Positions 3,723-48,139 of a DNA stretch of 64,000 nt are shown piece by piece; the first letter of the stretch is position 1, and every line of letters starts with the position of its first letter. The notes below the pieces were generated by a model. That model did not search any database, was not told the origin of the DNA, and saw only the letters and a list, made by a program, of their open reading frames with translations. This stretch comes from Ricordea florida (Eukaryota > Cnidaria > Anthozoa > Corallimorpharia > Ricordeidae). The translations under genes and the position numbers were made by a program. The stretch spans positions 15,320,114 through 15,384,113 of the forward strand of contig OX453287.1 of the NCBI GenBank assembly GCA_949710005.1, given 5' to 3'.

Positions 3723-3749
3723 TTTAAATGTTTATATTCTTGTTTATAA
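3723..3749. promoter_or_regulatory. Divergent capsid/integrase promoter gap (element A)
   Basis: Only 27 bp separate the divergent start codons of the capsid-like gene and the integrase. The gap is AT-rich, contains ATTCTTGT, and closely matches the gap in C (46867-46893). Element B keeps the same tight divergence (11695-11719). Any promoter elements must overlap the coding starts. Confidence 0.4.
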
Positions 3750-4586
3750 ATGAGCGACGCCAACGTTTTAAATCGATTATATTACTCCACTGATGGATAC
3801 TGGAAAGGATACTCAGCCATACCCAAATTGGCCAAAGCAGCCAAAGTTAGTGAAAAGGTCGCCAAAGAGTGGTTGGAGAAGCAAGCCTTGTGGCAAATTT
3901 ATCTCCCAGCCCCCAAGTATATACCCAGGCCACATTGGAGTGTGAATAAGCCTAATCAGATTCACCAAGCGGACTTGTTGTTTCTTCCTCATGATACAGT
4001 GAAAAGAAAAACATACCGCTATGCATTAGTCGTGATTGATATTGCTTCGAGATATAAGGATGCCGAGCCATTGACCTCAAAAGAGAGTGGTGAAGTTGCC
4101 AATGCCTTTCAACGGATTTATTCCCGTAAGTTGAAGTGGCCACAAACATTAATGATAGATCCAGGAACAGAATTCAAGGGTGATGTAACAACTCTTATGA
4201 ATAAGCATCAAGTCATAATCCAGCATAGTGAAGCTGGGAATCATAGAGCTCAAGCTTTTGTGGAGAGGGCCAACAGGACTCTCGGTGAGAAGTTATTCAG
4301 CCATCAATACGCTCAAGAGATGGTTAGTGATACCCGATCCACAGTTTGGGTGAATAGATTGCCCGCCATCATGAAGACCCTCAATAGTGAACCCACCCGT
4401 ATTACTGGTAAAGAGCCTGAGGAAGCTTTGAAAATGGACTCAATTGGAACTAAAACTCCAGACTATAAGCGACCTGTGGGATTGGATGAGAAGAGATTAC
4501 CTCCAGATGTTCAAGTCAGATATCTATATACCCCCGGTGAAGATGAAGGTGGGGACAATCGAAGGGCTACTGATCCCATATGGAGC
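3750..4586 (+). pseudogene. Retroviral-type integrase, 5' part, split by element B
   Basis: About 279 residues of a 332-aa DDE integrase. An N-terminal helical region with a LYYSTDGYWKG motif is followed by the RNase H-like core. Catalytic residues are D in HQADLLFLPHD, D in MIDPGTEFKGD and E in AFVERANR, with the last two about 35 residues apart. The reading frame stops matching exactly at DPIWS, where element B starts. The rest of the gene is at 25454-25611, and the two halves meet in frame if B and one copy of the 5-bp duplication are ignored. The enzyme would integrate linear element DNA. Reading on past 4586 gives a chimeric frame into the TIR of B, which is not a real protein. Confidence 0.9.
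4582..4586. repeat. Target-site duplication of element B, left copy
   Basis: GGAGC immediately before the first base of element B; the matching copy is at 25454-25458. Five bases are unambiguous. Polintons usually make 6 bp. Confidence 0.8.
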
Positions 4587-4845
4587 AGTAGGGGGAAAGT
4601 GACAGTTCTAGGCCAGCACTTCAAGACCAAAAACACAAAAATCCTGCACGCGTGCAGGATTCTAAAAATGATACCATATCATCTTAAAGGGATGACCTGT
4701 ACATCCAAACTCATCATGCCCAATCAACGTCAAACTGTCAAAGAGCTCCGCGCCATTGCCAAGGATCGCAAGATAGCCAAATATTATAAGATGAGCCGGG
4801 GAGAGTTAGTGGAGGCGCTGGGGATGCCTGAAGAGGTACTTAGTG
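4587..4845 (+). repeat. Left terminal inverted repeat of element B
   Basis: Inverse copy of 25195-25453 with only two or so mismatches (for example 4701-4703 ACA versus CCA, and one base near 4840). A short palindrome, ATCCTGCACGCGTGCAGGAT, lies about 65 bp in. Unusually, the inner 130 bp are coding: the ATG at 4716 opens the N-terminus of PolB here and of the zinc-repeat protein at the other end. Confidence 0.9.
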
Positions 4846-5454
4846 TTAGTGGGGGTGGTGGGGGAACAACGCATATTCTCGATGAGCCTGTCCCAGAAAT
4901 AAATGTACCTATTCTTAGGCCAGAAAATACGTACCTCCTAGTCGGTATAGAACACTTCTTTCGGAATATAACAGAGGAGTACAAAAGAAAATAAATAAGT
5001 TTGCGAATTGGATTTTGAATTATGTACCAAAGAGAATCAAAAAGCCTGTGAAAGAAAGAATCAGGAAGTTGAAGGAGGAAATAAGGAGCATTTGGGCTGT
5101 ACAGGAGCCGTTCAGTGTAAAAGAAAAGGAAAGTGCACTGAAAGGGTTCTTCAAGACCTATCGGATCGATGGTAAGAGGGGGTACGGTCCTCGAGAGTTC
5201 ATCAAGAAAATAAAACCAAAGGTTTTGGAGTTACTTTATAGTAGAAGAAAACCCATCAAGGTGAAGTTTGTATTAACTTGTAGATTCGTAAAAGATGATC
5301 TTGTTACGGGTAATGTTGAATACACTGAGGGGTACTTTCATACTAAACTTGAAATAGTAACGGACTCAACTGACACAAATAACTTACTCGATGCAATGAC
5401 GGGATTACAACTTGAAAATGTCGCGAAGTTTGAAGGTGAACAGTCTGGGTGGCA
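4716..5454 (+). pseudogene. PolB of element B, displaced N-terminal part
   Basis: Starts at ATG 4716 inside the TIR. Residues 1-42 form one Rho_N/SAP-like helical motif (TVKELRAIAKDRKIAKYYK). A linker and the region shared with the PolB N-terminus of A and C follow (NWIL...ALKGFFKTY...GYGP). A one-base deletion near 4990 breaks the frame, which resumes in another phase from about 4991. The match ends at 5454, where foreign family-1 DNA begins. The last 353 bp (5102-5454) are repeated exactly at 6197-6549, where PolB continues, so the gene is disrupted by an insertion with a duplication. Confidence 0.8.
5102..5454 (+). repeat. 353-bp direct repeat, copy 1 (PolB segment)
   Basis: Identical by eye to 6197-6549. 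Both code for the same PolB segment. The copies bracket 742 bp made of a family-1 fragment (5455-6180) and a 15-16-bp scrap of the PolB start region (6181-6196). Perfect identity implies a very recent event or an assembly artefact. Confidence 0.85.
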
Positions 5455-6196: not shown

Positions 6197-6549
6197 CAGG
6201 AGCCGTTCAGTGTAAAAGAAAAGGAAAGTGCACTGAAAGGGTTCTTCAAGACCTATCGGATCGATGGTAAGAGGGGGTACGGTCCTCGAGAGTTCATCAA
6301 GAAAATAAAACCAAAGGTTTTGGAGTTACTTTATAGTAGAAGAAAACCCATCAAGGTGAAGTTTGTATTAACTTGTAGATTCGTAAAAGATGATCTTGTT
6401 ACGGGTAATGTTGAATACACTGAGGGGTACTTTCATACTAAACTTGAAATAGTAACGGACTCAACTGACACAAATAACTTACTCGATGCAATGACGGGAT
6501 TACAACTTGAAAATGTCGCGAAGTTTGAAGGTGAACAGTCTGGGTGGCA
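6197..6549 (+). repeat. 353-bp direct repeat, copy 2 (PolB segment)
   Basis: Exact copy of 5102-5454. It is preceded at 6181-6196 by ATGCCCAATCAACGT, which matches the start of PolB at 4716, but the frame does not carry into the repeat. PolB coding continues past 6549. Confidence 0.85.
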
Positions 6550-9500
6550 ATTTGATCGAGTTGAGTACTTTGATATACACATTAATCCATTTGAGCCTAT
6601 CTCTGGGACTTCTTACATACCTCTACCAAAGGTTCTGGCTGATAAGAAGGCTATAGTCAATGTCAAGAATGAGAAGGACCATGAGTGTTTCAAGTGGGCG
6701 GTGACATCTGCTGTATTTCCCAAAGAGAACCCCGGTGAAAGACTGAATGCTGAGATGAGAAAGAATTCTGAGAAGTTTGACTGGACGGGGATGGAGTTCC
6801 CTGTTACACTAAGGGACATTACCAAGTTTGAAAAGCAAAATCCTTACGCCATTAACGTATATGGATACGAGTCTGGTGTAAACGTTTTGAGAATCAGTAA
6901 GCGTCGAGAGGTGACAGTGGTAAACTTACTTTTGTTACACAAAGATGAAACGAATCACTACTGTTGGATTAAGAACTTGAGTAGGCTTTTGTCATCACAA
7001 GTTGATAAACACGATGGTAGAAAATACTTTTGCCACCGATGTCTTAACCCATTCAATAAACAATCCTCACTAGACAAGCATCTAGAGTTTTGTAGCAATC
7101 ATCAAGCAGTCAAGACGACAGTACCCATGAACGAAGATGGGAGCCCGCAGTTCTTCCGTTTCAAGAATCACAACAGGAAGATGGAGGTACCGTTTGTTGT
7201 GTATGCAGATTTTGAGTGCTACACTGAAAAGATGTATACTTGTTACCAAGATGAGGGTAGGAGCTTTACCAATAGATATCAAAAGCATAAACCATCAGGT
7301 TTCTGTTATCTGATCAAGTGCTTTGATAACGCTATATTCGAACCCAAACTTGTAAGGCACACAGCTGAGTCACCAGACGAAGATGTACCCAAGATGTTTA
7401 TGGAGAGCTTGGAGTCGGATATCAAACAAGTTTATGATAGGTTCAAGCTACCCAAAAATTCTCGTGTCAGTCAGGATGAGAGAATAGCCTATGAAAATGC
7501 CACACATTGTCACATCTGCGGATCGATGCTTGGCCATGACAAAGTATTGGACCATTGTCATCTTACTGGAAAGTACAGAGGAGCAGCGCACCAAGAGTGC
7601 AACTTGAATTACAAGGTGCCTAAATTTGTACCAGTTATATTCCATAACCTATCCGGATACGATGGTCATTTATTTGTGAGGAACATAGGGGAATCGAAAG
7701 GTAAGCTGGATTGCATACCAATCAACGATGAAAAGTACATTTCGTTCACGAAAGAGATTGTTGTCGAATCTTACAAGAATAAGAAAGGGAAAATGGTTGA
7801 CATTAAACGGGGAATCAGGTTCATTGATAGCTTTCGGTTTATGGCAGCGGGCCTCAGAAGGTTGGTTGAAAACCTACCACAATCTTCTCTGGTGAATGTA
7901 ACGAGTTGGTATGAAAGGGTAATGTCACAAAAGGATAAACTCAAGCATGAAGAGAGAATCATTCACAACATATTGAGAAATGCTGATTTTGATGTTATAA
8001 CAATGCGTATGATCATGGAAGAGTTTTATCATCGATTGGATCGTGAGGCTGTCATGAGTAGGAAGGAAATCAGGGAGTTTGTAGACGGAGTTCTTACAAG
8101 TTATCGTCAAAAAGAAATATATAATCACATTGAAGAAGAAAAAGATGGCCCAGACTTGCAGTTACTGACTAGGAAGGGAGTATTTCCGTACGATTGGTTT
8201 GACGGGTTTGATAAGCTCAGGGAAACTAATCTCCCACCAAAGGATGAGTTCTACTCGAAGCTCTACAATGCCGAAATATCGGATGAGGATTACCAGCATG
8301 CTCAAAACGTGTGGAAAGTCTTTGGAATTGAGAGCTTCAGGGAATACCACGATCTTTACCTTGAACTGGATGTTTTATTGTTGGCTGATGTCTTCGAGAA
8401 CTTCAGAGAAGTTTGTAGGAAGAACTACGACTTGGATCCAGCTTGGTACTACACTGCACCTGGATTGGCATGGGACGCGGCCCTGAAAATGACCAATGTG
8501 AGATTGGAACTTTTGAATGACCCTGACATGCTTCTCATGGTTGAGGAGGGCATCCGAGGGGGTATCTCCATGATCTCAACTAGATATGGTAAAGCCAACA
8601 ATCCATACATGAAAGATTATGACCCATCATTACCAACAAAGTACATCACATACATGGATGCAAACGGTTTGTACGGATGTGCAATGAGTAAACCTTTACC
8701 AACACATGACTTTCGATGGTTGACTGAAGAAGAGCTTGTATTGAAGTGGAAAGATCTACCATGCATACTAGAGGTTAATCTAATGTACCCAAAGCACCTT
8801 CACAAACTGCATAATGACTATCCATTAGCACCAGAGAGAGTTACGGTAAATGGTGTGGATAAGCTAATTCCAAACCTAAGGGACAAACGAAAATACATCA
8901 TTCACCACGAGACGCTGAAACAGTATTTGAGTCTCGGGTTGAGAGTCTACAAGATATACAGGGGCATCACATTCAAAGAGTCCGCGTGGCTGAAGCCCTA
9001 TATCGAGCTGAATACCGAACTAAGGACCAAAGCAACAAACGACTTCGAGAAGGACTTTTTCAAGTTGATGAACAACTCAGTCTTTGGGAAAACGATGGAG
9101 AACGTAAGGAACAGGGTGGACGTTCGTTTGGTTACTGAAGAGTCAAAAGCCAAGAAGTTGGTATCGAAGCCGAATTACCACCACAGCACGATCTTTTGCG
9201 AAAATCTGGTTGCAGTACAAATGAAAAAGACAAAGTTGGTGTTGGACAAACCCATTTACCTAGGCTTTTCAGTCCTGGAAATAAGCAAGACCATAATGTA
9301 CGACTTTCACTACAACTACATCAAGCCCAAGTATGGTAGCAAAGCCAAGTTGTTATTTACAGACACAGATTCACTGGCATACGAGGTGGAGACGGATGAC
9401 TTCTACAAGGACATTAGCCCAGATGTGAGAGACCGGTTTGACACCAGCAACTACCCTGAAGATCATCCATCCGGCATTGAGGTGGGCGTCAACAAGAAAG

Positions 9501-9859
9501 TCGGGGGCATGTTCAAGGATGAAGCGGGTGGCCAACAGATCATAGAATTCGTAGGTCTCCAGGCCAAACTATATTCATACATGATGGATGAGGGAAAGGA
9601 GGAAAAGAAGTGTAAGTGTGTGAAGAAGGCTGTAGTGAAAAAGAGCATAAGCTTCAAAGACTACAAGGATTGCCTCTTCAATCAAAAATCACAGAGGAGG
9701 ACTATGAATATCATCAGGAGTCACCTACACGACTTGTACACAGAGACTGTGAACAAGGTGGCACTATCATGCGAAGACGACAAAAGGGTGGTAAGGGAGG
9801 ATGGGATACACACATATGCATATGGTCACTTTAGGACTCTAATTTCGGTAAAAACTTAA
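6320..9859 (+). CDS. Protein-primed family B DNA polymerase with internal endonuclease VII-like domain (N-terminus displaced)
   Basis: 1179 codons from the first in-frame ATG after the rearrangement; about 140 N-terminal residues lie upstream at 4716-5454. Order: C2H2 finger (CHRCLNPF...H..FC) near 240; Exo I YADFECY near 294; HNH/endonuclease VII-like module near 395-428 (HCHICG...DHCHLTGKYRGAAH), with all metal and catalytic residues present; Exo II HNLSGYD near 441; Exo III YHDLYLELDVLLLAD near 675; Pol motif A DANGLYG near 780; motif B MNNSVFGK near 915; motif C TDTDSLAY near 1014. The 3'-5' exonuclease and polymerase are intact. Compared with A and C it has an extra charged helical stretch of about 80 residues near 530-620. 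It replicates the linear element from protein primers, as in Polintons. Confidence 0.9.
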   Translation: MELLYSRRKPIKVKFVLTCRFVKDDLVTGNVEYTEGYFHTKLEIVTDSTDTNNLLDAMTGLQLENVAKFEGEQSGWQFDRVEYFDIHINPFEPISGTSYIPLPKVLADKKAIVNVKNEKDHECFKWAVTSAVFPKENPGERLNAEMRKNSEKFDWTGMEFPVTLRDITKFEKQNPYAINVYGYESGVNVLRISKRREVTVVNLLLLHKDETNHYCWIKNLSRLLSSQVDKHDGRKYFCHRCLNPFNKQSSLDKHLEFCSNHQAVKTTVPMNEDGSPQFFRFKNHNRKMEVPFVVYADFECYTEKMYTCYQDEGRSFTNRYQKHKPSGFCYLIKCFDNAIFEPKLVRHTAESPDEDVPKMFMESLESDIKQVYDRFKLPKNSRVSQDERIAYENATHCHICGSMLGHDKVLDHCHLTGKYRGAAHQECNLNYKVPKFVPVIFHNLSGYDGHLFVRNIGESKGKLDCIPINDEKYISFTKEIVVESYKNKKGKMVDIKRGIRFIDSFRFMAAGLRRLVENLPQSSLVNVTSWYERVMSQKDKLKHEERIIHNILRNADFDVITMRMIMEEFYHRLDREAVMSRKEIREFVDGVLTSYRQKEIYNHIEEEKDGPDLQLLTRKGVFPYDWFDGFDKLRETNLPPKDEFYSKLYNAEISDEDYQHAQNVWKVFGIESFREYHDLYLELDVLLLADVFENFREVCRKNYDLDPAWYYTAPGLAWDAALKMTNVRLELLNDPDMLLMVEEGIRGGISMISTRYGKANNPYMKDYDPSLPTKYITYMDANGLYGCAMSKPLPTHDFRWLTEEELVLKWKDLPCILEVNLMYPKHLHKLHNDYPLAPERVTVNGVDKLIPNLRDKRKYIIHHETLKQYLSLGLRVYKIYRGITFKESAWLKPYIELNTELRTKATNDFEKDFFKLMNNSVFGKTMENVRNRVDVRLVTEESKAKKLVSKPNYHHSTIFCENLVAVQMKKTKLVLDKPIYLGFSVLEISKTIMYDFHYNYIKPKYGSKAKLLFTDTDSLAYEVETDDFYKDISPDVRDRFDTSNYPEDHPSGIEVGVNKKVGGMFKDEAGGQQIIEFVGLQAKLYSYMMDEGKEEKKCKCVKKAVVKKSISFKDYKDCLFNQKSQRRTMNIIRSHLHDLYTETVNKVALSCEDDKRVVREDGIHTYAYGHFRTLISVKT

Positions 9860-9897: not shown

Positions 9898-10731
9898 ATG
9901 GATTACGATTCAGAGGAAAATTATCACAGCCTCTTCGATCATTTTCAGTCTATGTTCAAGAAAGCTGATGAAGAGGACGAACAGGTTTGTAAGCATGAAA
10001 GTGTGTATAGGGATAAAACAGGGATTGTTGTTTGTAGCCTCTGTAAGACTGAACTAGAACGGATGGACTATTCTAAACGAGAATGGATGTACTACTCATC
10101 AGTCAGTAGGTGTGATCTTCGTAGATCAAAGCCAAAGGGAGTTCGTAATGTATTCGAGAGACATGACTTGAATGTGTCTTCTATGATGATCAATATCGTA
10201 GAAGCCAAGTATCAAGAGATTGTAAAGTTTAAGTGTAAAAATCGCGGTCAGATTCGTACGTCTTTGGTGGCTTCATGCTTGTTTTATACATACCAAGAAT
10301 TTGGTGAGTATCGTACGTTAGATTACATTAGGAATTTGTTTGGAATCAAGAAAAGAGCCATGACACGTGGTTTACAAATGTACTTGGAAGCATTCCCAGA
10401 GGTGAGAACCAACTACATTACACCAGAGAAACTTATTCCCTGGATAATGAGAGTTACTGGGGTTGATGAATCTCATCAAAGACGCATTTTGTCCATTGCC
10501 AAGTACTTTGGAGCAACATCACAGATTCTTGAGCGCGGTACTAGCGGTGTAGTTGCAGCGGGTATTGTCTTCTTTTACTTATGTATGAACCAGGAGTATA
10601 AAAATCAAATAGGTATGACGAAGAAGATCTTTGCCGACAAAGTTAAAATTTCGGACATTTCATTGATCAAGATAGTTCGTGAAATGGCTGACATCTCAAC
10701 AATGTCACTTAAGTACTCTAGAGGGTGGTAA
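9898..10731 (+). CDS. TFIIB-like transcription factor
   Basis: 277 aa. An N-terminal zinc ribbon at about residues 31-50 (CKH...GIVVCSLC) is followed by two cyclin-like repeats. The first, about 85-170, contains RTSLVASCLFYTYQEFGEYRTLDYI; the second, about 180-270, contains RGTSGVVAAGIVFFYLCM and SDISLIKIVREMADI. This is the TFIIB/TFB layout, in which the ribbon contacts RNA polymerase and the cyclin folds bind TBP-promoter complexes. Large DNA viruses encode such proteins to direct their own transcription; I know of none as a standard Polinton gene. It lies 38 bp after PolB and overlaps the integrase 3' end by 27 bp on the opposite strand. No equivalent exists in A or C. The frame is intact. 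Confidence 0.82.
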   Translation: MDYDSEENYHSLFDHFQSMFKKADEEDEQVCKHESVYRDKTGIVVCSLCKTELERMDYSKREWMYYSSVSRCDLRRSKPKGVRNVFERHDLNVSSMMINIVEAKYQEIVKFKCKNRGQIRTSLVASCLFYTYQEFGEYRTLDYIRNLFGIKKRAMTRGLQMYLEAFPEVRTNYITPEKLIPWIMRVTGVDESHQRRILSIAKYFGATSQILERGTSGVVAAGIVFFYLCMNQEYKNQIGMTKKIFADKVKISDISLIKIVREMADISTMSLKYSRGW

Positions 10732-11694
10732 TTCAGTATCATCGGGAACAACTTGGAGTTCCTCGCGTACAAATCCTCGCTTCGATACTCCATCCAAATA
10801 ATACACAACTGGTTGATCTGGTGAAATTACAGTTCTCGCTATGTCATAAACCTCAAGGCTCCATACAGGATCAGTGGCTCTTCGTTTGTCACCACCTTCA
10901 TCTTCACCGGGCGAATACAAATACCTAACCTCGACTCCCGGGGGCAACCTCTTCTCATTCAAACCCACAGCTCTCTTGTATTCCATAGGCTTAACATCAA
11001 TCTCTTTCAATTCCAAAGCTTCATCGGGCTCTTTACCTGTGATGCGTGTGGGTTCAGAATTCAAAGTCTTCATAATGGCGGGCAGCCTTTTCACCCAAAC
11101 CCTAGACCTAACATCACTCACCATCTCCTGTGCATATTGATGGCTAAATAATTTCTCACCAATCGTTCTGTTAGCCCTCTCTACAAAAGCCTGCGCTCGA
11201 TGGTTACCAGCTTTACTTCGCTGTACGTCTACTTGATGCTTATTCATCAAGTGAGTGACATTACCCATGAATTCTCTACCGGGATCCACCATTAATGTCT
11301 TTGGCCACTTTAGCTTCCGAGCATAAATCCTCTCAAACGCCCTGGCCACTTCACCACTATCTTTCGAGGTCAGTGCCTCAGCATCCTTGTACCTAGACGC
11401 GATATCAACCACAACCAGCGCATAGCGGTATGTTTTTCTTCTCACTGTATCGTGAAGAAGAAACAGCAAGTCCGCTTGATGAATTTGATTTGGTTTGCCA
11501 ACGACCCAATGTGGTCTGGGTATGTACCTTGGTGGAGGAACATATATCTGCCACAATGCTTGCTTCTCCAACCAATCTCTGGCAACACTTTCGGTCACTT
11601 TGGCCGCACTCGCCAACTTTGCTATGGCCGAGTATCCTTTCCAGTATCCATCTGTAGAGTAGTATAATCGACTTAAAATATTGTCACTAGACAT
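10705..11694 (-). CDS. Retroviral-type integrase of element B
   Basis: 329 aa and intact, unlike the copy in A. N-terminal helical region with LYYSTDGYWKGYSAIAK, DDE core with D in HQADLLFLLHD, D in MVDPGREFMGN and E in AFVERANR, then a small C-terminal domain (RRATDPVWS...GFVREELQVVP) resembling the chromo-like tails of Polinton integrases. It joins element ends to target DNA; B's own 5-bp duplication is its expected product. Reverse strand; starts 25 bp from the capsid-like gene and ends inside the TFIIB-like gene. Confidence 0.92.
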   Translation of the reverse strand: MSSDNILSRLYYSTDGYWKGYSAIAKLASAAKVTESVARDWLEKQALWQIYVPPPRYIPRPHWVVGKPNQIHQADLLFLLHDTVRRKTYRYALVVVDIASRYKDAEALTSKDSGEVARAFERIYARKLKWPKTLMVDPGREFMGNVTHLMNKHQVDVQRSKAGNHRAQAFVERANRTIGEKLFSHQYAQEMVSDVRSRVWVKRLPAIMKTLNSEPTRITGKEPDEALELKEIDVKPMEYKRAVGLNEKRLPPGVEVRYLYSPGEDEGGDKRRATDPVWSLEVYDIARTVISPDQPVVYYLDGVSKRGFVREELQVVPDDTELPPSRVLK

Positions 11695-11719: not shown

Positions 11720-12886
11720 ATGGCTGGAATATCATACATTCTTGATACTGATCGTGTTCCCAGGATGCGTAAAGGTTTGAGGGCCGAGGCCTCATTAAAT
11801 CGGATCACGCTAAACCCCTCATCAGCCAATCCTGGCGAGACATTATACATTGAAATACCAAAACTGACCGACAATCTGGTGATTGTGCCTGGCAGTGTGT
11901 ACATAACTTTCGATATGAATGTGACAGGTCACAAGAACAACACACTTGTCAACAACTTGGGAAGGAACCTCGTTTCACGATACAAGGTTCTATTCGGGGG
12001 TGAAATCATAGAGGACCTTGATAGGTTTGATTTGTTCAAGACTTATCACGATTTGTTTTTGTCAGAGACCGATCGAAATAACAGATTGAGACAGGGCATA
12101 TCATCCGAGAATGTAAGGAAAATCAGAACCAATGCCGGTGACAAAGTTACCTCGAATGCAGCAGAAAATACTCTAGGTGCAGTCCATAACACCAGGTACG
12201 AAATACCATTGGACCACACGATACTGAAAGATCACGGAGTCTTCTATCCAAAAGCCTTACCACATCCACTCAGATTCGAAATAACTCTAGCTCCGGTTTC
12301 TGATGTCGTCGTTTACTCAAACGTTGAAACACCACCTGATTACAAATTAACAAATATGGAGCTGGAGTATCAATGCATATCAAGTGACCGATTAGCCAGT
12401 CAAGCTATTGCCTCGTACCAGAATGGAAGGGTTTTCATGTATGAGAAGATACTTCTTCACAAAACGTTCCCAATCTCCGAGAACACTGATGGTGTGATCA
12501 ATGAGCATATTAACGTGCCCAGGAAGTCTATGACTGGGATACTATGTATTTTCACAGCCCCATATGCAGCAGGTGCTAGGGACTCTGAGAGTTTTGCAAA
12601 CCCAAAGATCACATCGGTCAAGATTGACAAAGATGGGGTACCAAACAAACTTTATTCGAAAGGCATGATACCAACTGATTTATGGCAAGCCATAATTAAA
12701 CGAGTTGGTATCGATGATTCCATCAAGGAGTCTGATTTCTATACGAACAAGTTTGCTCTGTGGATCGATCTGAGGAGTTACCCCGACAATGATATTCATG
12801 GGAACGGTTTGTGGCTAAGTAGTACTCGGGATGGCATAAGACTCGAGATTAACAGGGAGAAGAGAGGAGGAAGGGTTCCATATTAG
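11720..12886 (+). pseudogene. Major capsid-like protein, C-terminus lost by deletion
   Basis: 388 codons aligned throughout with the 411-aa protein of C (GETLYIEIPKLTDNLVIVPG, NNLGRNLVSRYKVLFGGEII, DKFALWIDLR-type block) up to about residue 378. There the last about 30 residues are replaced by RGGRVPY and a stop. The next bases code for the C-terminal part of a different gene, so a deletion fused the two. Double jelly-roll capsid assignment by inference as for A and C. Loss of the final strands would probably impair folding. Confidence 0.8.
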
Positions 12887-20975: not shown

Positions 20976-21027
20976 TGTTTACTAGAAGAAGTCAATTATC
21001 TTTCGAAGTATGTAGTTTTATTCCGCT

Positions 21028-21120
21028 CAAGCCCCCTTCCCCGGAGCAATGTTGGAGTGTCTTTCGATTGACATCCCACTGGCGTTCTATCAAACAACAT
21101 TGCACCGGGGAAGGGGGTTT
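21028..21120. repeat. Imperfect inverted repeat downstream of the zinc-repeat genes
   Basis: AAGCCCCCTTCCCCGG...CAATGTTG at about 21029-21053 is repeated inverted at about 21094-21118 around a 40-nt centre. Beyond it the arms keep drifting similarity: 20929-20966 read in reverse resembles 21157-21198. This suggests two zinc-repeat gene tails facing each other. Confidence 0.45.
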
Positions 21121-21195
21121 GAATATAAGGGAATCGGGAGGGGACATTGTGGTCATTGTCTTAGTAGGGTGTCAAGGTATATTGACGGCGATTGT
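21105..21195 (+). repeat. 91-bp direct repeat X, left copy
   Basis: Identical to 24916-25006. The right copy forms the 3' end of the zinc-repeat gene (24983-25324), so X is original element B DNA duplicated on the two sides of the Rep/transposase segment. Confidence 0.85.
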
Positions 21196-21440
21196 CTGAA
21201 AGAAGGGCCTCATTACATTTATTGAAAAAAAGACATGTAAAGCACTAAGCATCATTACACATTGCTGTTATAACAATACAAAGCGTGAAATCGAAGAAAG
21301 TATTGATGTCGAGGCTGTTTAACACGTAATAATACAATAAAGTGTTCCAAATATCCTTTAGAATCAGACGTTTTCTGTGCGTGTAGCGATCACTTAGTAC
21401 CAAAATGGTTTGGCGTGAAATCGATCCCAAAACAGCAGCA
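21196..21440 (+). repeat. 245-bp direct repeat Y, left copy, with candidate origin
   Basis: Identical to 24671-24915. It contains a possible origin (21321-21346), CACGTG-free AT-rich leader sequence and the first 12 codons of the transposase (ATG 21405). The direct orientation argues against a transposon TIR. Confidence 0.85.
21321..21346 (-). other. Candidate rolling-circle origin stem-loop (copy 1)
   Basis: On the minus strand AACAC-TTTATTG-TATTATTAC-GTGTT: 5-bp stem arms around a loop containing TATTATTAC, which fits the NANTATTAC nonanucleotide nicked by CRESS-DNA Reps. It lies in the leader shared by both genes and is repeated at 24796-24821. The stem is short and no iterons were recognised, so this is tentative. 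Confidence 0.4.
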
Positions 21441-22483
21441 AAGGTGCAGATCCTGAAAGAACAGGGAGACTTGACAGTCAATGAAATAGCACGAAAGTGT
21501 CACGTGTCAAGATCAACGGTGTTTCGGTCTGTGAAATCCCCAAATACGAAGAAAAGAAGTAAACGTAAGGCAGGGAAACCGCGAATATTAAGCGCGCGCT
21601 ATGAGCGCAGGATTGAGCGGCAATCTACAATTTACGCCGAACTACTGGGCATTTCACATGCAGGAGACTGATGTGTGAGGTAGGACTTACTACAGAAGAC
21701 ATATCAGTCAGGTCCATGCAACGATACATGGAAAGATTGGGCTATGGATATCACCAAGCCAGGAAAAAGGGTATTCTAACTGATAAGAATGTAGTAAGGA
21801 GACTATCATTCGCAAGACAGATTAAAAGACAGCGTCCTTTAGACTTCTGGAAAGAAGATGTGTGCTTTTATCTCGACGCAGTAAGCTTTTACCACAAATA
21901 CAATCCCTTCGATCAGGCAAGAGTTGCTAGCGGCCGCATATGGAGAAAAAAAGAGGAAGGATTATCGCAGTACTGTACAGCCAAGGGCAGTCACGAAGGA
22001 ACTGGCGGTAGAGTTGTGCATGTGTTTGTTGCGATTTCGTACCGTAAGGGTGTCATTTTATGCCAAGAATACGATTATTTAGATGGCAAGTTCTTTGCTC
22101 TATTTGTTCTTGAGCATTTTGAAAACGTTTATTGTAGAGCGGAAAAATGCAGAACACGACTATTTTTACAAGACGGGGATCCGAGTCAAAAAAGCGCAAA
22201 GGCAAAAATTGCAATGGAATCAGTTCATGCAACAATATTCCCTATTCCCCCTCGAAGTCCGGATTTAAACCCTATTGAGAACTTGTTTCATATCACAAAG
22301 AAGCAGTTAAAGGAAGAAGGGTTAGAAAAACACATAACATATGAAAACAAGGAGCAGTTCGCTGAAAGAGTGAAGAGGAACATTCAGGAAATACCTGTCG
22401 GCGTTATCGACCATTTAATAGACTCCATGAACAAGCGTATAGATTTCATTATAAAAACTCGTGGGCATCGTACAAAATACTAA
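21405..22483 (+). pseudogene. Tc1/mariner-like (IS630 superfamily) transposase, one frameshift
   Basis: Frame 1 (21405 to about 21625) gives the N-terminal helix-turn-helix (DLTVNEIARKCHVSRSTVFR). The protein continues in another phase: about 21626 into the frame opening at ATG 21671, with a second HTH-like region, then the catalytic core. Acidic residues: D in CFYLDAVSF, D in LFLQDGDPSQ and E in PDLNPIENLF, with 34 residues between the last two, so DD34E. A one-base shift near 21622-21626 separates the halves; a TGATG stop-start overlap at 21669-21673 could in theory allow re-initiation. No Tc1-type inverted repeats flank it. Convergent with Rep. Confidence 0.8.
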
Positions 22484-22967
22484 ATACGATAAGACTTACA
22501 GAAGTATTGTACTATTGTACTGAGGGAAGTTTTTTTTATACGCAACATTTTGTATATATTGTACTTCCGTGGGAATAAATTCTTAAATGTTTGACAGTAC
22601 CGCACTAGTTTGAGAATGTAAACAAACCTTATCTCTTTTGCATAATCACTTGGCTTCGTCATTATGGCATTTATAAAAATAGAACTTTATACGGTATTTT
22701 TCCTAAGCCACTGAATTTATACAAAGGTTAGTATGTTCCATAATGTTTTAGTTGTAATGCTACCTTTCAACGGTGTTGCATTACTAATGCTAAGTGATGA
22801 TCGCGGTTTACGGTTTACGGTGTTTGATATAAAGTAATTCGACCTTCATCTTTACACTTCATAAACGTAAAGCGTAAACCATGAAAACGTTGAAAACATT
22901 GTACTTCTATCGCCATACTATTTACAATAATGCAATGCAGTATAGACTATTGTTATTCGACATATGT
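22484..22967. other. Convergent intergenic region of the replicon
   Basis: 484 bp between the 3' ends of the transposase and Rep. AT-rich, with a run of T and scattered AATAAA-like signals on both strands; short frames here do not look real. It probably holds the transcription ends of both genes. Near 22803-22825 GGTTTACGGTTTACGG is a short tandem repeat. Confidence 0.4.
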
Positions 22968-24387
22968 CTAACCCAAAATGAGTCTTGCGAAGCAAGACGC
23001 GCACGATTCGAGTTCTTTTTGACGTTCACGGGGTATAACCCTGTTAAAGTTGAAAACGAGCCATCTAACGCGCATCATGTCACTTTCACGCTCGTCTATC
23101 GCACCACTCTTAACATAAACAATGGGGTGTTTGCTTGTAGCGAAGATTGGGGTGTCTTTCTCAAACAAGATATCCTTAGCATAGTGTGATTTCGGAGCGG
23201 GGAGGTGCACTGGTTGTCCTTCTAACGTAAGAAGTAGATCATGCCAGGGGATAAGCGCGCTATTCCACCGGAAGTCGTTAAGGAAGACACACTCGGCCTT
23301 TTCCGCACCTATCCAAGCAAATGTAGATGTTGCCGGGTTTGAAAATACGTGGTAGATCTTGGTTATTGGGTTAAGAATGAACGTTTTTCCACAGTCTGCA
23401 GGGCCCACGATAAGAATATTACGGTATTTTCCTCTGCCTTTTTTCAACAATTCTAATACCGCTGTGGTAAAACTATTTTCGGTGATCCCATTCTCCTGTA
23501 AGATCTGCTCGGCGCATACTAACCACTGACCTTCGCATCCGTCCACGCATGGCTCGTCTTTACACTCCTGTAAAATGTCTATTCTTGATTTATTAAGCCG
23601 TAATAACTGTTCATCTGCAGTCTCCATCTCCCAGGCTGTATTAAGAACTTCACTGACAACTTTAGGCCCTCTATTTACTATAAACTCCGCTACATCTGTT
23701 TTTCCTTCCGCTTTCTGATCTTTGGCTAATTTCATGAGTTCGAGTTTCGTTTTAATACCTTTCTTCACTATTAATTCGGACAGCTCAAAGGAAGACATAC
23801 GCGTTCGCTTCCTACTACCTCTCGATCTGGTGCTATTTGATCTGTTGACACGGCGGCTTTCGTTTCGGCGTGCAATTCCTCGAGCGTGTACTGCTGCACT
23901 TGCCTGGTTTCCTCGTCTAAGACCTTCATTCGTTAGATCTGGGTGTCCTTCGCTATGCAGTGCTTCTCTATCTTCCTTAGTGACATATTGATAAGCAGTG
24001 AAGTAGTTAGAATGGCTATCGGAATAGTGCACACTAACATCTTGCTCCAACAGAGCTCTCTTGCTTGATATCAATCTTTGAAGGCGATCAAATTTTAGGC
24101 ACATGTGATAGTGTAATCCACCATCGGCATGCTCTTCTAAAGAACAGCACCATTGCAAAATTCTTCCATTGCAACCACAGAACGATTCTAGGACGATATC
24201 TACAAAAGATTGCCTTGTTGGGAAGCGTGTTGTGTCGGCCTGACTGTATGTGACTAGATACACTTGTCTTACAATTGGCTCAGAAGGGACCGTATCTAAC
24301 TCCTCTTCTACAACTATCCGAGATTATACTGCAACTGTCTTCGTATTCAAGGTTAACTTCACACTGACTATATTCGCCTGTCTCCAT
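22968..24387 (-). CDS. rep: CRESS-DNA-type replication initiator (HUH endonuclease + SF3 helicase)
   Basis: The main frame runs from about 24320 to 22968. Motif I YLVTYSQAD; HUH motif HYHMCLKF; motif III YQYVTKED with the catalytic Tyr/Lys; a basic Arg/Ser-rich linker; a helical domain; then SF3 helicase: Walker A GPADCGKTF, Walker B CVFLNDF, motif C PIFATSK, and a C-terminal ESCASCFARLILG. This is the layout of geminivirus/circovirus-like Reps that nick an origin and unwind DNA for rolling-circle replication. The likely ATG is at 24387, one base out of phase with the main frame near 24318; otherwise a non-ATG start at 24263 would be needed. The core is uninterrupted. Confidence 0.88.
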
Positions 24388-24670
24388 TCTATCAATTGGG
24401 TGAAATGTACATCAAAATGTTTGACGTAAAGACTAGAATTCACGTCTATATACACAGGCCACAATTCTTAGCGCGCTATTATAATATTTGCATCTTAAGA
24501 CATTTGCGTTTTTCGACAGAATTTCTTGAACTACTTAGCTATAAGGACATCCTCTCTTTTTCGTTATACACTTTCATGTTCCTTGTATTTAGGGGGTACG
24601 TACTATCAAATTTCACGTCATTCCGAGCAGTGAAACGTCCAAAATCAGGAAAAGGTGAATTTAGACATGT
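24388..24670. promoter_or_regulatory. Leader between Rep and repeat Y
   Basis: 283 bp upstream of Rep, followed by repeat Y'. With Y' it forms the divergent Rep/transposase leader of a circular unit. No clear promoter motif; noncoding. Confidence 0.35.
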
Positions 24671-24915
24671 CTGAAAGAAGGGCCTCATTACATTTATTGA
24701 AAAAAAGACATGTAAAGCACTAAGCATCATTACACATTGCTGTTATAACAATACAAAGCGTGAAATCGAAGAAAGTATTGATGTCGAGGCTGTTTAACAC
24801 GTAATAATACAATAAAGTGTTCCAAATATCCTTTAGAATCAGACGTTTTCTGTGCGTGTAGCGATCACTTAGTACCAAAATGGTTTGGCGTGAAATCGAT
24901 CCCAAAACAGCAGCA
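24671..24915 (+). repeat. 245-bp direct repeat Y, right copy, with candidate origin
   Basis: Identical to 21196-21440. It carries the second stem-loop (24796-24821) and ends 12 codons into the transposase, where target DNA resumes after GCA microhomology. Confidence 0.85.
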
Positions 24916-25006
24916 CCGGGGAAGGGGGTTTGAATATAAGGGAATCGGGAGGGGACATTGTGGTCATTGTCTTAGTAGGGTGTCAAGGTATATTGACGGC
25001 GATTGT
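24916..25006 (+). repeat. 91-bp direct repeat X, right copy
   Basis: Identical to 21105-21195 and contiguous with element B sequence to its right. Confidence 0.85.
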
Positions 25007-25324
25007 AGTTCTACCATGAGAACATACTTGGGAACCCTTACAATCTTTACAAGAGTACTTTACTCTACCATGAGTACATATACCCTTACCACCACATTCT
25101 TTGCAACATGCTTTCTGTCTTAGATGAGGGCATATTTGTGATCCCATACAATCCTTACACTGAACCTTACGCCTGCCATGGTTACATTTTCCACCACTAG
25201 GTACCTCTTCAGGCATCCCCAGCGCCTCCACTAACTCTCCCCGGCTCATCTTATAATATTTGGCTATCTTGCGATCCTTGGCAATGGCGCGGAGCTCTTT
25301 GACAGTTTGACGTTGATTGGGCAT
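24983..25324 (-). CDS. Zinc-repeat protein with TIR-encoded Rho_N/SAP-like N-terminus
   Basis: 113 aa from ATG 25324. The first 42 residues (MPNQRQTVKELRAIAKDRK...) are the same as those of B's PolB because they lie in the TIR. They are followed by about four CxxC-x5-CxxH units (CKDCMGSQICPH, CKECGGKGICTH, CKDCKGSQVCSH) and a short tail TTIAVNIP. The helix-extension-helix motif often binds nucleic acid and the repeats should bind zinc, so a DNA- or RNA-binding role is plausible. The stop lies inside X, so the replicon insertion did not truncate it. The frame is open further upstream without ATG, into the TIR. Confidence 0.7.
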   Translation of the reverse strand: MPNQRQTVKELRAIAKDRKIAKYYKMSRGELVEALGMPEEVPSGGKCNHGRRKVQCKDCMGSQICPHLRQKACCKECGGKGICTHGRVKYSCKDCKGSQVCSHGRTTIAVNIP

Positions 25325-25453
25325 GATGAGTTTGGATGGACAGGTCATCCCTTTAAGATGATATGGTATCATTTTTAGAATCCTGCACGCGTGCAGGATT
25401 TTTGTGTTTTTGGTCTTGAAGTGCTGGCCTAGAACTGTCACTTTCCCCCTACT
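25195..25453 (-). repeat. Right terminal inverted repeat of element B
   Basis: Inverse of 4587-4845; ends ...CTTTCCCCCTACT at 25453, immediately followed by the GGAGC duplication. Confidence 0.9.
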
Positions 25454-25458
25454 GGAGC
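25454..25458. repeat. Target-site duplication of element B, right copy
   Basis: GGAGC, matching 4582-4586. The integrase frame of A resumes here. Confidence 0.8.
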
Positions 25459-25611
25459 CTTGAGGTCTATGATTTGGCCCGAACCATAATCAAACCGGGC
25501 CAACCAGTCTTGTATTATTTGAGTGGTGGTCCAAAACGAGGATTCTTTCGTGAGGAGCTTCAATTTGTACCTCAAGACACTAAATCACCGCCTTCCAGCG
25601 TCCTGAAATGA
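25454..25611 (+). pseudogene. Integrase of element A, 3' part
   Basis: SLEVYDLARTIIKPGQPVLYYL...GFFREELQFVPQDT and TGA at 25609-25611; the C-terminal small domain of the integrase begun at 3750. In phase with the upstream half across element B. Its 3' end overlaps the PolB 3' end by 40 bp on the other strand, as in C. Confidence 0.88.
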
Positions 25612-28600
25612 CCATGTGCATAAGTGTTTATACCATCGTCCATTATCACACGTTTATCGTCCTCGCGTGATAATGCAATCTTATTGATAGTTTCAGTGTA
25701 GATGTCATGATTATGACTCCTTATGGTGTTCATCTTCCGTCTCTGGAATTGACCACTGAAAAGACAAGTCTTGTAATCCTGAAAACTTATGCTTTTGCTA
25801 ACCACTGCCTTGTTAACACCCTTACACTTCTTGACTTCCTTCTGCTTATCCGTCTTGAAAGCATACAGTTTGGCACTCAGACCCACAAATTCAGTGATCT
25901 GTTCACCACCAGCCTCATCTTTGAACATCCCTCCAACCTTTTTGTTCACTCCGGTCTCAATACCGGATGGATGGTCCCTTGGATAGTTGCTGGTGTCAAA
26001 TTTAGCCCTCACATCCAGACTGATGTCCCTGTAAAAGTCCTCAGTCTCTATCACATAGGCTAAAGAATCCGTGTCTGTGAACAACAACTTGGCCTTATCC
26101 CCATACTTTGGTTTGATATATATATACTTGTAATGAAAATCATACATAACAGTCTTACTCAAATCCAGAATGGATAAACCTAAGTAAATGGGCTTATCAA
26201 AGACCAATTTCGTTCTCTTCATATGAAAGGCGGTCAGATCCTCGCAAAAGATGTTCCTATGATGGAAATTTGGCTTCACAATCAACTTACGTGCTTTCTT
26301 CTCATCAGTAACCAACTGGATATCCACCCTCTTCCTAATATTCTCCATGGTCTTGCCAAACACCGAGTTGTTCATCAACTTGAAGTAGTCCTTTTCGAAA
26401 TCATTCTCAGGCTTGGCTCTCAAACTATTATTCAGATCAATATAAGACTTCAACCACTCCGATTCTTCGAATTTGATCCCTCTGTGTACCTTAGTTAACT
26501 TCAAACCCAACGACAAATACTGTTTCAGAGCTTCGTGGTGTAGAATATACTTCTTCTTGTCCCTCAAATTGGGAACCAACTTACCAACCCCATCAACATC
26601 CAACCTCTCTGGAGCCAATGGATAATCACTGTGAAGATCGTGTAACTCCAATGGGTACTCCAATCCACCTCTAATATGCATGGATGGTTCCTCCAATCTG
26701 TCAACTCTTGATCACTCATCCACTCAAAACCATGGGTTGGTAAAGCCTTGGTCACTGTATAGCCATAGAGCCCATTAGCATCCAAATATGTGATGAACTT
26801 TGTAGGCAACCTGGGATCATAGTTCTTCATATATCGATTATTGGCCTTCCCATGCCTCGTCGAGATCATTGATATTCCAACTCTGATACCATTCTCTACC
26901 ATAATCAGCATATCGGGATCCCTCAAAAGCTCCAACTCAACCTTGGTGATCTTCAATGTAGCATCCCAAGCCAGTCCAGGTGCAGTATAATCCCATGCTG
27001 GATCCAACCCGTAATTCTTCATACAAACCCCTCTGAAGTTCTCAAAGACATCAGCCAACAGAATCACATCTGTTTTGAGATACAAGTCATGGTAATCCCT
27101 AAAACTTCTCATACCAAAGGCCTCCCACACGTTTCCGGCATGTTGATAATCCTCATCTGATATGTCAGTGTCGTATAATATCGAATAGAATTCATCCTTG
27201 GGTGGTAGACTAGACACTTGTAACTTGTCAAAGCCATCAAACCAATCATATGGAAACACTCCCTTCCTAGCCAAAAGATCAAAGTTTGCCCCTTCATAGT
27301 ATCTCGAGAGGTTTTCCAGAGACTCTCTCGGCAAGTTGTCAGCCAATCTAGCCAAACCACTTGCCATGAACCTAAAACTGTCTATAAACCTAATGGAGCG
27401 TTTAATCTGAACCTCCTTCTCCTTACCATCATCCCCTTCTGCCTTCTTCATGAACTTTTCAACCACAATCTCTTTGGTGAATGAGATGTACTTTTCATCG
27501 TTAAGTGGAATACAATCAATCTTACCCTCTGATACTCCCATCTTCTTGATAAACAAATGACTATCGTATCCAGACAAGTTGTGGAATATGACTGGAAAGA
27601 ACTTGGGAGTGCTAAATTCCAGGTTGCATTTCCTATGGGCTGCTCCTCTGTACCTACCTGTAAGACGGCAGTGGTCGACCACCTTATCATTCCCCAGTTC
27701 ACCCTCACAAATATGGCAATGAGTAGCCTTTCTATGCTTCCTATTATCGCCATGATTCATTACAAGCTTCTTTTCAGTCTTGAATTTATCATAGATCTTC
27801 TTAATGTCCTCCTCCAAGCTTTCCTGAAACATTTGTGGTATGTCATCCTCAGGTGAGTCGGCTGTTCGCATCATCAACTTGGGCTCAAAGATCTCATCAT
27901 CGAAACACTTGATAAGGTAACAGAAACCTGATGGCTTGTGCTTCTGATACTGATTTGTGAAGCTATACCTGTCATCCGGGAAACAGGTGTCCAACTTCTC
28001 TGTGAAACACTCAAAATCAGCATAGATCACAAATGGCACTTGCATCTTTCGTCTGCGGTTCTTGAAAGTAATGTACTTTGGGCTACCATCCTCTTCCATC
28101 GGCATCTGGACTTTGACTGCCTCGTTGTTTAGGCAGTACTTCATATGGTCGTCCAGCGACTTTTTAGAATTGAACGAGTTTAGGCAGTTATCACAATAGA
28201 AACGGGCACCCTTATTCTTATTATACTTGATAAGTCTTGACATGTTTTTGATCCAACAGTAATGATTTGTCTCTTCGTTTGATATCAAGAGTAGGTTTAT
28301 CTTTTGCACCCCTGACTTGTTACTACGCCTGATTAGGGTTGGCCCTCCATTCTCATAACCAAGGATGTTGATCCCATATGGATTCTGCCTTTCAAATCTA
28401 TCTATATGGGTTGTACTAAGTGCTGCCACTGGAAACTCTATCCCTGACCAATCGAGTTTCTCTGAGTTTTCTCTCATCTCTCTGTTTAGTCTTCCAGCAT
28501 CCTTATCCCTTGGAAACACAGCGGATGTCACTGCCCATTTGAAACACTCCTGGTCTTCTTCATTCTTGACATTGATAATTGCCTTTTTAGCAGCTAATTT

Positions 28601-29461
28601 AGGTGGTAATTTAATATATGAACTTCCAGAAAACGGTTGAAATGGATTTATGTGGATGCGAAAGTCTATCACACTTTCAAACACCCATCCAGATCGCTCA
28701 TTCTCATATTTCTGCACCAATTCAACCAGTCTAGCTTTGATGTTATCAAACACAACAAATGTGTCTGTTGAAGCTGTCACTGTCTCCATCAGTGAATGGA
28801 AATGACCTTGACTCCGCTCAGTAACACGATTATCCTGGTTATTCCTCCTCGTGAATCCACATGAAAGAATACACTTCAGTTTGAATGGCTTCCTATGTTT
28901 ATACATTAAACTACGAAATGGTGTTCTAACCTTGCTAAGGAATGAAGTTGGATCATATCCAGCTCTACCCTTTACTATATAAGTCCTCAAAAAGCCTCTC
29001 AGAGCCGTTTCATGTCTTTCAGGGATGAAATAATCGGGTTCTCTTCTAACTGCATTAGCTGCCCTTCTTAATCTCCTGGTGATGGCCCTCCTGTTTGGAT
29101 CTCTAACATTAGATCTTATCCAATTTATGGTCTGGTTAACTTCACGCCTGGCAGAAGCAATAGCCCTTCCATATGAAGCTCGGGCGGGCCTTGTTCTTGT
29201 GGGCCTAACTGGACCAGGAATTGGAACATTAGCTTCAACCACTCGTGGAGGTCCGACAGCATTAATGAGAGCCGCTTTACGCATGTTGCCAAAACCTTGT
29301 ATACCAGACCTCTTGGCTATGGTTCGTAATATCTTCACTGTCAAGTTCTCGAATTGTATATCAGATAACGCTGTGAGCATTTCAGCCTTTCTGAATCCAC
29401 GAACACTCACACCAACTCTTTTGGCTATTGACCTCAAGTCTTTCACTGTCAAGTTCTCCAT
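25572..29461 (-). pseudogene. Family B DNA polymerase of element A, one frameshift
   Basis: Homologue of the 1293-aa PolB of C. It starts at ATG 29461 (MENLTVKDLRSIAKRVG), two Rho_N/SAP-like repeats, then the same order of finger, Exo I YADFECF, endonuclease VII-like module, Exo II HNLSGYD, Exo III, motif A DANGLYG, motif B MNNSVFGK and motif C TDTDSLAY. A one-base deletion near 26665 (a TTT reduced to TT after ILEVD) splits it into frames 29461-26564 and 26696-25572, removing motifs B and C from the first product. In the endonuclease VII-like module the histidine of DHCHLTG is Arg (DHCRLTG), which would damage that nuclease. Confidence 0.88.
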
Positions 29462-29533
29462 AGCATCAATTGTATTTTGGAATTGCAATCTCTAAGCCAA
29501 CCACTATGGTATTGAAAAGCTTATTTAACTTTT

Positions 29534-29568
29534 ATACATTTGTAACATGGATCGTGTTACAAATGTAT
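29534..29568. repeat. Spaced palindrome, 14-bp arms, 7-nt spacer (element A)
   Basis: ATACATTTGTAACA - TGGATCG - TGTTACAAATGTAT, between the zinc-repeat gene and PolB; both are on the reverse strand and the palindrome lies in the gap between them. The same site in C is 41924-41948. The arms are longest here. Confidence 0.65.
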
Positions 29569-29602
29569 ATTCACACTCTTCACAATACTTATTTATTGAT
29601 AC

Positions 29603-30280
29603 TTACAAACATATCTTACATCTCCTTTTCTTATTAGTATTTAATTTACCATGTATACAATATAAATGAGGTCTACATTCTTTACAATAATGTTTTCGTC
29701 TGCCATGGGAACAAATACCAGCACCACCACATTCTTTACAATAATATTTTTGTCTGCCATGTAAACAAAAATAAGCACCACCACATTCTTTACAATAATG
29801 TTTTTGTCTACCATGCGAACACAAACCAGCACCACCACATTCTTTACAATAATATTTTTGTCTGCCATGTAAACAAAAATAAGCACTACATTCTTTACAA
29901 TGTTTTCGTTTGCCATGGGAACAAATACCAGCACCACCACATTCTTTACAATAATATTTTTTTAAAGAATGTGAACAGAAACCAGCACCACCACATTCTT
30001 TACAATAATGTTTTTGTCTACCATGTGAACACAAACCAGCACCACCACATTGTTTACAATAACGTTTTTGTTTACCATGTAAACAAATACCAGCACCACC
30101 ACATTCTTTACACTGATATTTTTGTCTGCCATGTAAACAAATAGAAGCACCACCACATTCTTTAAAATAATGTTTTTGTCTACCATGCGAACACAAACCA
30201 GGACCACCACATTCTTTACAATAATGTTTTTGTTTACCATGAGTACAATACTTTTTTGCCATGTCATTCACGTTGTCCAT
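29603..30280 (-). CDS. Tandem zinc-repeat protein, 12 units
   Basis: 225 aa from ATG 30280. After MDNVNDMAKKYCTHGK come about 12 units of CKECGGAGICSHGRQKHY (C-x2-C-x5-C-x2-H), ending CKICL. One unit has lost its first Cys (FKECGG) and one is shortened. The copy in C has 8 units, so unit number changes by unequal recombination. Similar arrays occur in giant-virus proteins; zinc binding is inferred and the function is unknown. The gene begins at the inner edge of the TIR, so its promoter lies in the TIR. Long frames on this strand in other phases are shadows of the repeat. Confidence 0.8.
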   Translation of the reverse strand: MDNVNDMAKKYCTHGKQKHYCKECGGPGLCSHGRQKHYFKECGGASICLHGRQKYQCKECGGAGICLHGKQKRYCKQCGGAGLCSHGRQKHYCKECGGAGFCSHSLKKYYCKECGGAGICSHGKRKHCKECSAYFCLHGRQKYYCKECGGAGLCSHGRQKHYCKECGGAYFCLHGRQKYYCKECGGAGICSHGRRKHYCKECRPHLYCIHGKLNTNKKRRCKICL

Positions 30281-41431: not shown

Positions 41432-41893
41432 AACGTGAATGACATGGCAAAAAAGTATTGTACTCATGGTAGACGAGAACATTATTGTAAAGAATGTGGT
41501 GGTGCTGGTATTTGTTCACATGGTAAACAAAAAGAGTATTGTAAAGGATGTGGTGGTGCGGGCATTTGTTTACATGGCAGACAAAAATATCAGTGTAAAG
41601 AATGTGGTGGTGCTGGTATTTGTTTACATGGTAAACAAAAACGTTATTGTAAAGAATGTGGTGGTGCTGGTTTGTGTTCGCATGGTAGACAAAAACATTA
41701 TTGTAAAGAATGTGGTGGTGCTGGTATTTGTTTACATGGTAAACAAAAATATTATTGTAAAGAATGTGGTGGTGCTGGTATTTGTTCCCATGGCAGACGA
41801 AAATATTATTGTAAAGAATGTAGACCTCATTTATATTGTATACATGGTAAATTAAATACTAATAAGAAAAGGAGATGTAAGATATGTTTGTAA
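41426..41893 (+). CDS. Tandem zinc-repeat protein, 8 units
   Basis: 155 aa: MANVNDMAKKYCTHGRREHY, then units CKECGGAGICSHGKQK of pattern C-x2-C-x5-C-x2-H, ending CRPHLYCIHG and CKICL. Homologue of the 12-unit protein in A. DNA repeat units are about 57 bp. Should bind several zinc ions; a nucleic-acid or protein-binding role is a guess. Translation starts right at the TIR boundary; the spaced palindrome follows 30 bp after the stop. Confidence 0.82.
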   Translation: MANVNDMAKKYCTHGRREHYCKECGGAGICSHGKQKEYCKGCGGAGICLHGRQKYQCKECGGAGICLHGKQKRYCKECGGAGLCSHGRQKHYCKECGGAGICLHGKQKYYCKECGGAGICSHGRRKYYCKECRPHLYCIHGKLNTNKKRRCKICL

Positions 41894-41923
41894 GTATCAA
41901 TAAATAAGTATTGTGAATATACA

Positions 41924-41948
41924 TTTGTAACATGGATCGTGTTACAAA
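41924..41948. repeat. Spaced palindrome TTTGTAACA-7-TGTTACAAA (element C, left)
   Basis: Between the zinc-repeat gene and PolB; spacer TGGATCG, identical to that in element A. Candidate terminator or operator. Confidence 0.6.
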
Positions 41949-42025
41949 AGTATAAAAGTTAAATAAGCTTTTCAATACCATAGTGGTTGGCTTAGAGATT
42001 TCAATTTCAACATACAATTGATGCT

Positions 42026-48129: not shown

Positions 48130-48139
48130 GCCGCTACAT

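Follow-up and report, generated by a model that had tools for sequence, protein, structure and literature searches.

A Rep and Tc1-type transposase unit between direct repeats in Ricordea florida: a probable integrated copy of a circular replicon

The DNA considered in this study is a 64-kb stretch of the genome of the corallimorpharian Ricordea florida (GenBank assembly GCA_949710005.1, contig OX453287.1, positions 15,320,114 to 15,384,113), which I will call the window and whose positions serve as coordinates throughout. Inside a Polinton in this window lies a unit of 3475 bp, present 1.07 times between identical direct repeats (R), that carries a Rep gene and a transposase gene. The locus is probably an integrated, circularly permuted 1.07-unit copy of a circular two-gene replicon of that length, encoding a Rep protein (an HUH endonuclease with an NS1/E1-like helicase of superfamily 3, SF3) and a Tc1-type DDE transposase, and inserted by error-prone repair. 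I put the probability of this reading at about 0.68.

Structure of the unit and its flanks

The features of the unit and its immediate flanks, in the overall order X-R-transposase-Rep-R-X, are given in Table 1.

Table 1 Features of the unit and its flanks, with strand where one applies.
21027-21122: inverted repeat in the target, arms of 28 nt (93%) separated by 40 nt, lying across the left edge of X
21102-21195: left copy of the 94-bp outer flank duplication, X
21193-21440: left copy of the 248-bp direct repeat, R, starting with TGT common to the flank
21321-21346, minus: left one of the two candidate rolling-circle origins, which are 3475 bp apart
21405-21671, plus: N-terminal piece of the transposase, helix-turn-helix (HTH), 88 aa, with a frame break ahead of the DDE part
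21671-22483, plus: DDE piece of the transposase, 270 aa, match to PF13358 and weakly to HTH_Tnp_Tc3_2, D-D34-E residues present
22968-24263, minus: Rep, HUH endonuclease and NS1/E1-like SF3 helicase, 431 aa from GTG
24668-24915: right copy of the 248-bp direct repeat, R, ending with GCA common to the flank
24758-24769: 12-bp direct repeat GCGTGAAATCGA, possible iteron, overlapping 9-mers
24796-24821, minus: candidate rolling-circle origin, right copy, TATTATTAC at 24809-24801, abutting a 5-bp stem
24888-24899: partner of the 12-bp direct repeat GCGTGAAATCGA, in the first transposase codons, overlapping 9-mers
24913-25006: right copy of the 94-bp outer flank duplication, X

The two copies of R agree at 248 of 248 positions with a spacing of 3475, and at such a length a chance match is ruled out. 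A first-pass annotation of this DNA had reported perfect repeats of 245 bp, the 3-bp difference being the bases common to repeat and flank, and it had correctly placed the two genes convergently between them (transposase on the plus strand, Rep on the minus strand, both within the unit). The left R contains the first 12 transposase codons. The unit is therefore circularly permuted, amounting to one complete unit and 7% of the next, and the transposase already belonged to it at integration. From the terminal redundancy alone I infer that the 3475-bp unit was circular, and the earlier proposal of an integrated circular unit with terminal redundancy is supported in the form of a circularly permuted 1.07-unit copy of a Rep and transposase unit.

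Outside the R repeats, the flank itself is duplicated: left and right X are identical at 94 of 94 positions. The TGT that ends left X also starts left R, and the GCA that ends right R also starts right X; by my own estimate, an overlap of at least 3 bp at one junction would arise by chance with p ~0.05. Taken together, the R and X duplications show 0 differences over 342 compared positions, and the insertion is accordingly young. As to an empty site, the joined flanks have no uninterrupted match elsewhere in the window. The 94-bp flank duplication, a frame break in each gene and the Polinton location are additions to the first-pass annotation.

The Rep gene

The Rep frame stays open as far as 24323 but offers no ATG, and it is probably broken upstream of motif I. 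In an alignment of the window Rep with 31 relatives (A1, 32 rows), the residues H51 and H53 of HUH motif II and Y93 and K96 of the YxxK motif III are invariant, and the fuller set of H51-Y-H53, Y93xxK96 and the Walker A residues is invariant or nearly so. The nuclease model REP_ORF2-G2P matches 22 of the 32 rows; Viral_Rep (PF02407) is absent from the 11 Pfam families listed for them. The window Rep itself matches Parvo_NS1 (8e-6) and, weakly, PPV_E1_C (0.025), with no match to PF00910. Over all 32 rows, Parvo_NS1 is found in 11 and PPV_E1_C in 9 (best 8.9e-7), PF00910 in 2 (best 0.0067) and Gemini_AL1 in 3. The earlier description of a "CRESS-type Rep (HUH nuclease, SF3 helicase)" (CRESS: circular Rep-encoding single-stranded) is right as to the HUH nuclease and the SF3 helicase, but "CRESS-type" is loose for a helicase that places with Parvo_NS1.

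Among viral models, the predicted structure of Rep (predicted local distance difference test, pLDDT, 86.5; predicted template modelling score, pTM, 0.58) comes closest to those of parvovirus NS1 and papillomavirus E1; in the PDB, it comes closest to E1 and the Rep68/Rep40 proteins of adeno-associated virus. The query-normalised TM-scores are modest, about 0.3-0.5, and the target-normalised scores of 0.5-0.7 come mainly from helicase-only chains. Searched as a single sequence against the PDB, Rep found no match; the A1 profile found AAA ATPases only (E 0.1-0.6), and a search of PHROGs gave no informative match. The helicase, then, resembles that of parvovirus NS1 or papillomavirus E1. A Helitron or IS91-type reading is unsupported, the helicase being SF3 of the NS1/E1 type.

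No capsid gene was recognised in the unit: the largest other open reading frame (ORF) is one of 102 aa, antisense to Rep, and six of the ten other ORFs of at least 60 aa were scanned, with no Pfam match at 0.01.

The transposase gene

The break in the transposase falls between its HTH and DDE parts. The residues of the catalytic triad are present, their DD34E spacing was counted by hand on a second alignment (A2), and a profile of transposase relatives matches Sleeping Beauty with an E-value of 1.6e-18, all of which, with the PF13358 match, confirms the DD34E transposase of the first-pass annotation, albeit with the frame broken in this copy. Its claim that transposon terminal inverted repeats (TIRs) are lacking also holds, in that the best inverted match around the transposase is 9 bp, within the range of 8-14 found in 20 shuffles. 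Exact 11-mer inverted pairs in the unit number 1 against 1.4 expected, and inverted pairs of at least 14 nt in the window are not placed as TIRs. Tc1 elements duplicate a TA target; no TA duplication is present at this insertion, where the flank duplication is the 94 bp already described. Because there are no recognisable TIRs, the transposase probably does not move the unit by ordinary cut-and-paste.

Full-length relatives exist for both Rep and the transposase. The frame breaks may have come from the source circle, may have arisen later, or may be sequencing errors; with both genes broken, this copy is not autonomous.

Candidate rolling-circle origins

On the Rep strand of each R, TATTATTAC lies directly beside a 5-bp stem (AACAC/GTGTT) and fits the nonanucleotide NANTATTAC of CRESS viruses. 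There are 11 sites in the window that fit NANTATTAC, and a stem of at least 5 bp is found at the two R copies only. Both copies of GCGTGAAATCGA occur in the left R as well, one on each side of the candidate origin. An origin in each repeat, which had earlier been supposed, has thus been given a candidate sequence.

Relatives of the two genes

A search with Rep returned 635 proteins at E ≤1e-3, and what follows concerns the best 120 of the 635. Organism names stand on three rows of these (Actinostola, Acropora and Porites), all of them cnidarians. For the transposase, the best 120 of 455 relatives were considered, and for its relative P0141 the best 120 of 1126. Sizes were compared by taking the longest contig of each listed cluster, for 120 Rep and 202 transposase clusters. 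Among the Rep clusters, 23 of 120 fall at 3.5-4.0 kb, with 9 at 3.0-3.5 kb and 6 at 4.0-4.5 kb. The transposase clusters number 16 of 202 at 3.5-4.0 kb and 22 at 4.0-4.5 kb (38 together), with 6 and 9 in the neighbouring ranges of 3.0-3.5 and 4.5-5.0 kb. This excess of contigs near the unit size among the listed relatives suggests stand-alone units.

Constant linkage and joint evolution of the two genes would be expected to produce many equal contig sizes. Comparison of 120 with 120 listed clusters gave 2 exact matches against 1.7 expected. With 120 and 202 clusters there were 3 matches against 1.46 expected at 1-6 kb (3 is reached by 18.5% of 400 offsets) and 3 against 1.48 over all lengths (19% of offsets). 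Limited to 3-5 kb, a range picked after the data were seen, the count is 3 pairs with a shared source against 0.64 expected, reached by 2.5% of offsets; these are the same three pairs that are unremarkable at 1-6 kb. Two of the three size-matched Reps (P0047 and P0115) are sisters in a 32-row tree (support 94/83) and 56% identical, whereas the transposases matched to them by size are 46% identical to each other, so that the genes are not clearly travelling together. No relative was confirmed in its DNA context in viral_contigs, genome_contigs or phages by contig scans that used exact short peptide patterns and may miss relatives.

The first-pass annotation had raised the prospect of a distinct class of Rep-transposase replicons. 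The few equal-size matches, in an indirect and weak test, fall short of showing a stable class. Neither of the findings named there as contrary (other copies with the two genes unlinked, or TIRs and TA duplications enclosing the transposase alone) was encountered, in an analysis that gave little opportunity to look for them. I hold only tentatively, at somewhat short of even odds, the idea of a widespread class of circular elements of about 3.5-4.5 kb, in cnidarians and others, in which an NS1/E1-like Rep is accompanied by a Tc1-type transposase where a capsid gene would otherwise stand. Such a rolling-circle replicon, devoid of a capsid, would exist both in episomal form and in the form of integrated partial dimers, and could ride in Polintons.

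The pairing may instead be incidental, a Rep replicon having once trapped a Tc1-type transposase, which perhaps replaced a capsid gene and which lost its TIRs, with the replicon and its integration nonetheless real. Such a one-off composite is unlikely. Plain Tc1 elements are shorter than 3.5-4.5 kb, the size of contig on which the 38 transposase clusters lie, and the three equal-size pairs from a shared source at 3-5 kb, which may be chance, also speak for something more than a single accident. The composite does agree with the lack of TIRs, with the weak matching of contig sizes, and with the capsid gene that has been proposed for sea-anemone cressviruses with an E1-like Rep (PMC11071296).

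Integration and possible release

The 94-bp flank duplication and the 3-bp microhomologies argue for integration of a repair type and not for ends made by Rep or by the transposase. The inverted repeat at 21027-21122, as a hairpin with 28-nt arms, could have provoked a break in the Polinton. The broken target end would then prime on the circle at the 3-bp match TGT, copying would proceed 1.07 times round the circle, and the strand would switch back by way of the second 3-bp match, GCA, 94 bp upstream in the target. The process would be one of microhomology-mediated break-induced replication, a single act of which would account for both duplications. In a close alternative, a linear 1.07-mer would have been end-joined into the break and a 94-nt stagger filled, with the same result. 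Joining by Rep at the origin is unlikely and was rejected, as the unit ends lie 112-135 bp away from the candidate nick sites.

During an episomal stage, Rep would nick TATTATT/AC in the intergenic region for replication. Release of one unit from the integrated copy by Rep acting in trans is conceivable, because each R holds a candidate nick site: a nick at the right candidate origin and termination at the left would free exactly one unit, comparable to release from a partial-dimer geminivirus clone. The earlier suggestion that Rep could excise a unit circle keeps its footing in the candidate nick sites one unit apart, but with both of its genes frame-broken this copy could not act alone.

Several observations weigh against an integrated Rep-transposase replicon. 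Both genes are broken in this copy, and no circle, tandem copy or second locus of the unit was seen in an analysis confined, for this genome, to the window. The stem beside the candidate origin measures 5 bp, and a search of 24264-24915 yielded none of at least 8 bp with a loop of at most 20; because of this the origin stays a candidate. Among the relatives, the size peaks differ (3.5-4.0 kb for Rep and 4.0-4.5 kb for the transposase), and equal contig sizes reveal no broad linkage of the two genes.

An error of assembly, by which the Polinton received a circular contig that does not belong there and whose ends overlap, is very improbable: a linearised contig of that kind would presumably resemble the R-body-R arrangement, and the frame breaks in both genes could be indel errors of long reads, but two misjoins would be required 94 bp apart in the same host sequence, each with a 3-bp match and a clean duplication. 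I give equally little credence to a transposable element that has long terminal repeats in direct orientation and that its own transposase or Rep moves as a defined unit, for although direct repeats flank both genes and two DNA-processing enzymes are encoded, R enters the transposase codons (on which ground a reading like that of long terminal repeats is also rejected), the ends do not coincide with the candidate nick sites, the 94 bp duplicated in the flank contrast with the TA of Tc1, and the junctions show microhomology.

The host Polinton and its surroundings

The features of the Polinton that holds the unit are given in Table 2.

Table 2 Features of the host Polinton.
4587-25453: the whole host Polinton of about 20.9 kb, bounded by TIRs of about 260 bp with 2 mismatches
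6320-9859, plus: PolB-type gene, named by eye from the sequence, with Pfam matches only to Endonuclease_7 and DEK_C
10705-11694, minus: rve integrase, 32.5 bits, just below the cut-off of 32.6
11720-12886, plus: Capsid_N protein

The TIRs of the host Polinton begin AGTAGGGG, with GGAGC at both flanks, where an uninterrupted homologue has GGAGT. This homologue, at about 41459-50877, corresponds to a second Polinton inside which the first one sits: the halves of the second, 1095-4585 and 25453-30031, match 49486-46022 and 46026-41459 at 93%. The circle would therefore have entered a Polinton nested in a Polinton. At 3750-4994, the rve integrase ORF of one Polinton continues into the TIR of the nested one, so that its C-terminus is chimeric and includes a Rho_N domain.

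A Cys-rich repeat protein (CKECGGxGxCxHGRQK), with tandem units at multiples of 54 bp, is encoded at 29603-30280 and 41458-41851, and a fragment related to it adjoins the Rep element at 25039-25120. At 63037-63963 there is a protein that, judged by eye, resembles a tyrosine recombinase.

Comparison with known systems and significance

The nearest published relatives found are the RepE1 cressviruses of sea anemones and seawater, which have an E1-like SF3 Rep and small genomes, one apparently circular (PMC11071296). Contigs of the sea-anemone virus join virus fragments to cnidarian genomic sequence, and the capsid genes proposed for the group are Hepecap, Nodacap and Filcoat (same source). Compared by helicase type, the unit shares the E1-like Rep, through the PPV_E1_C matches of its relatives (only weak in the window Rep) and the E1 structures among the PDB matches; their proposed capsid gene has no counterpart in the unit, the only other recognised gene of which is the Tc1 transposase. 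The unit is like the CRESS-DNA viruses (Cressdnaviricota) in a Rep with HUH, a single-Tyr motif III and SF3, and in the intergenic position of its candidate NANTATTAC site, but it has no recognised capsid gene and a helicase nearer to NS1/E1 than to the usual PF00910 type. With the Sleeping Beauty branch of Tc1/mariner (IS630) it has in common the DD34E domain and the Tc3-type HTH; it differs in having neither TIRs nor a TA duplication and in having a companion Rep gene and a probably circular unit. Teratorn, described as a 180-kb fusion of a herpesvirus with piggyBac (PMC10175614), likewise joins a virus-type replicating element to a transposase, though at the size of a herpesvirus and with a different transposase.

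In its Rep, and probably in its origin, the unit would function in the manner of a CRESS replicon. With no recognised capsid gene, a helicase not of the usual type, and neither TIRs nor a TA duplication, it is assigned to neither CRESS nor Tc1. In a literature search that left subscription papers mostly outside, no published replicon of Rep with a Tc1 transposase was recognised.

An exchange of modules among CRESS-like viruses, plasmids and DNA transposons is commonly assumed. If the present reading is true, the pairing of a rolling-circle Rep with a cut-and-paste transposase, and not with a capsid, would stand directly between viruses and transposons as an intermediate. The locus would display the entry of a circle into a chromosome through the traces of one young event, namely terminal redundancy, duplication of the flank and a microhomology at each junction, and it predicts the release of a unit circle between the two origins.

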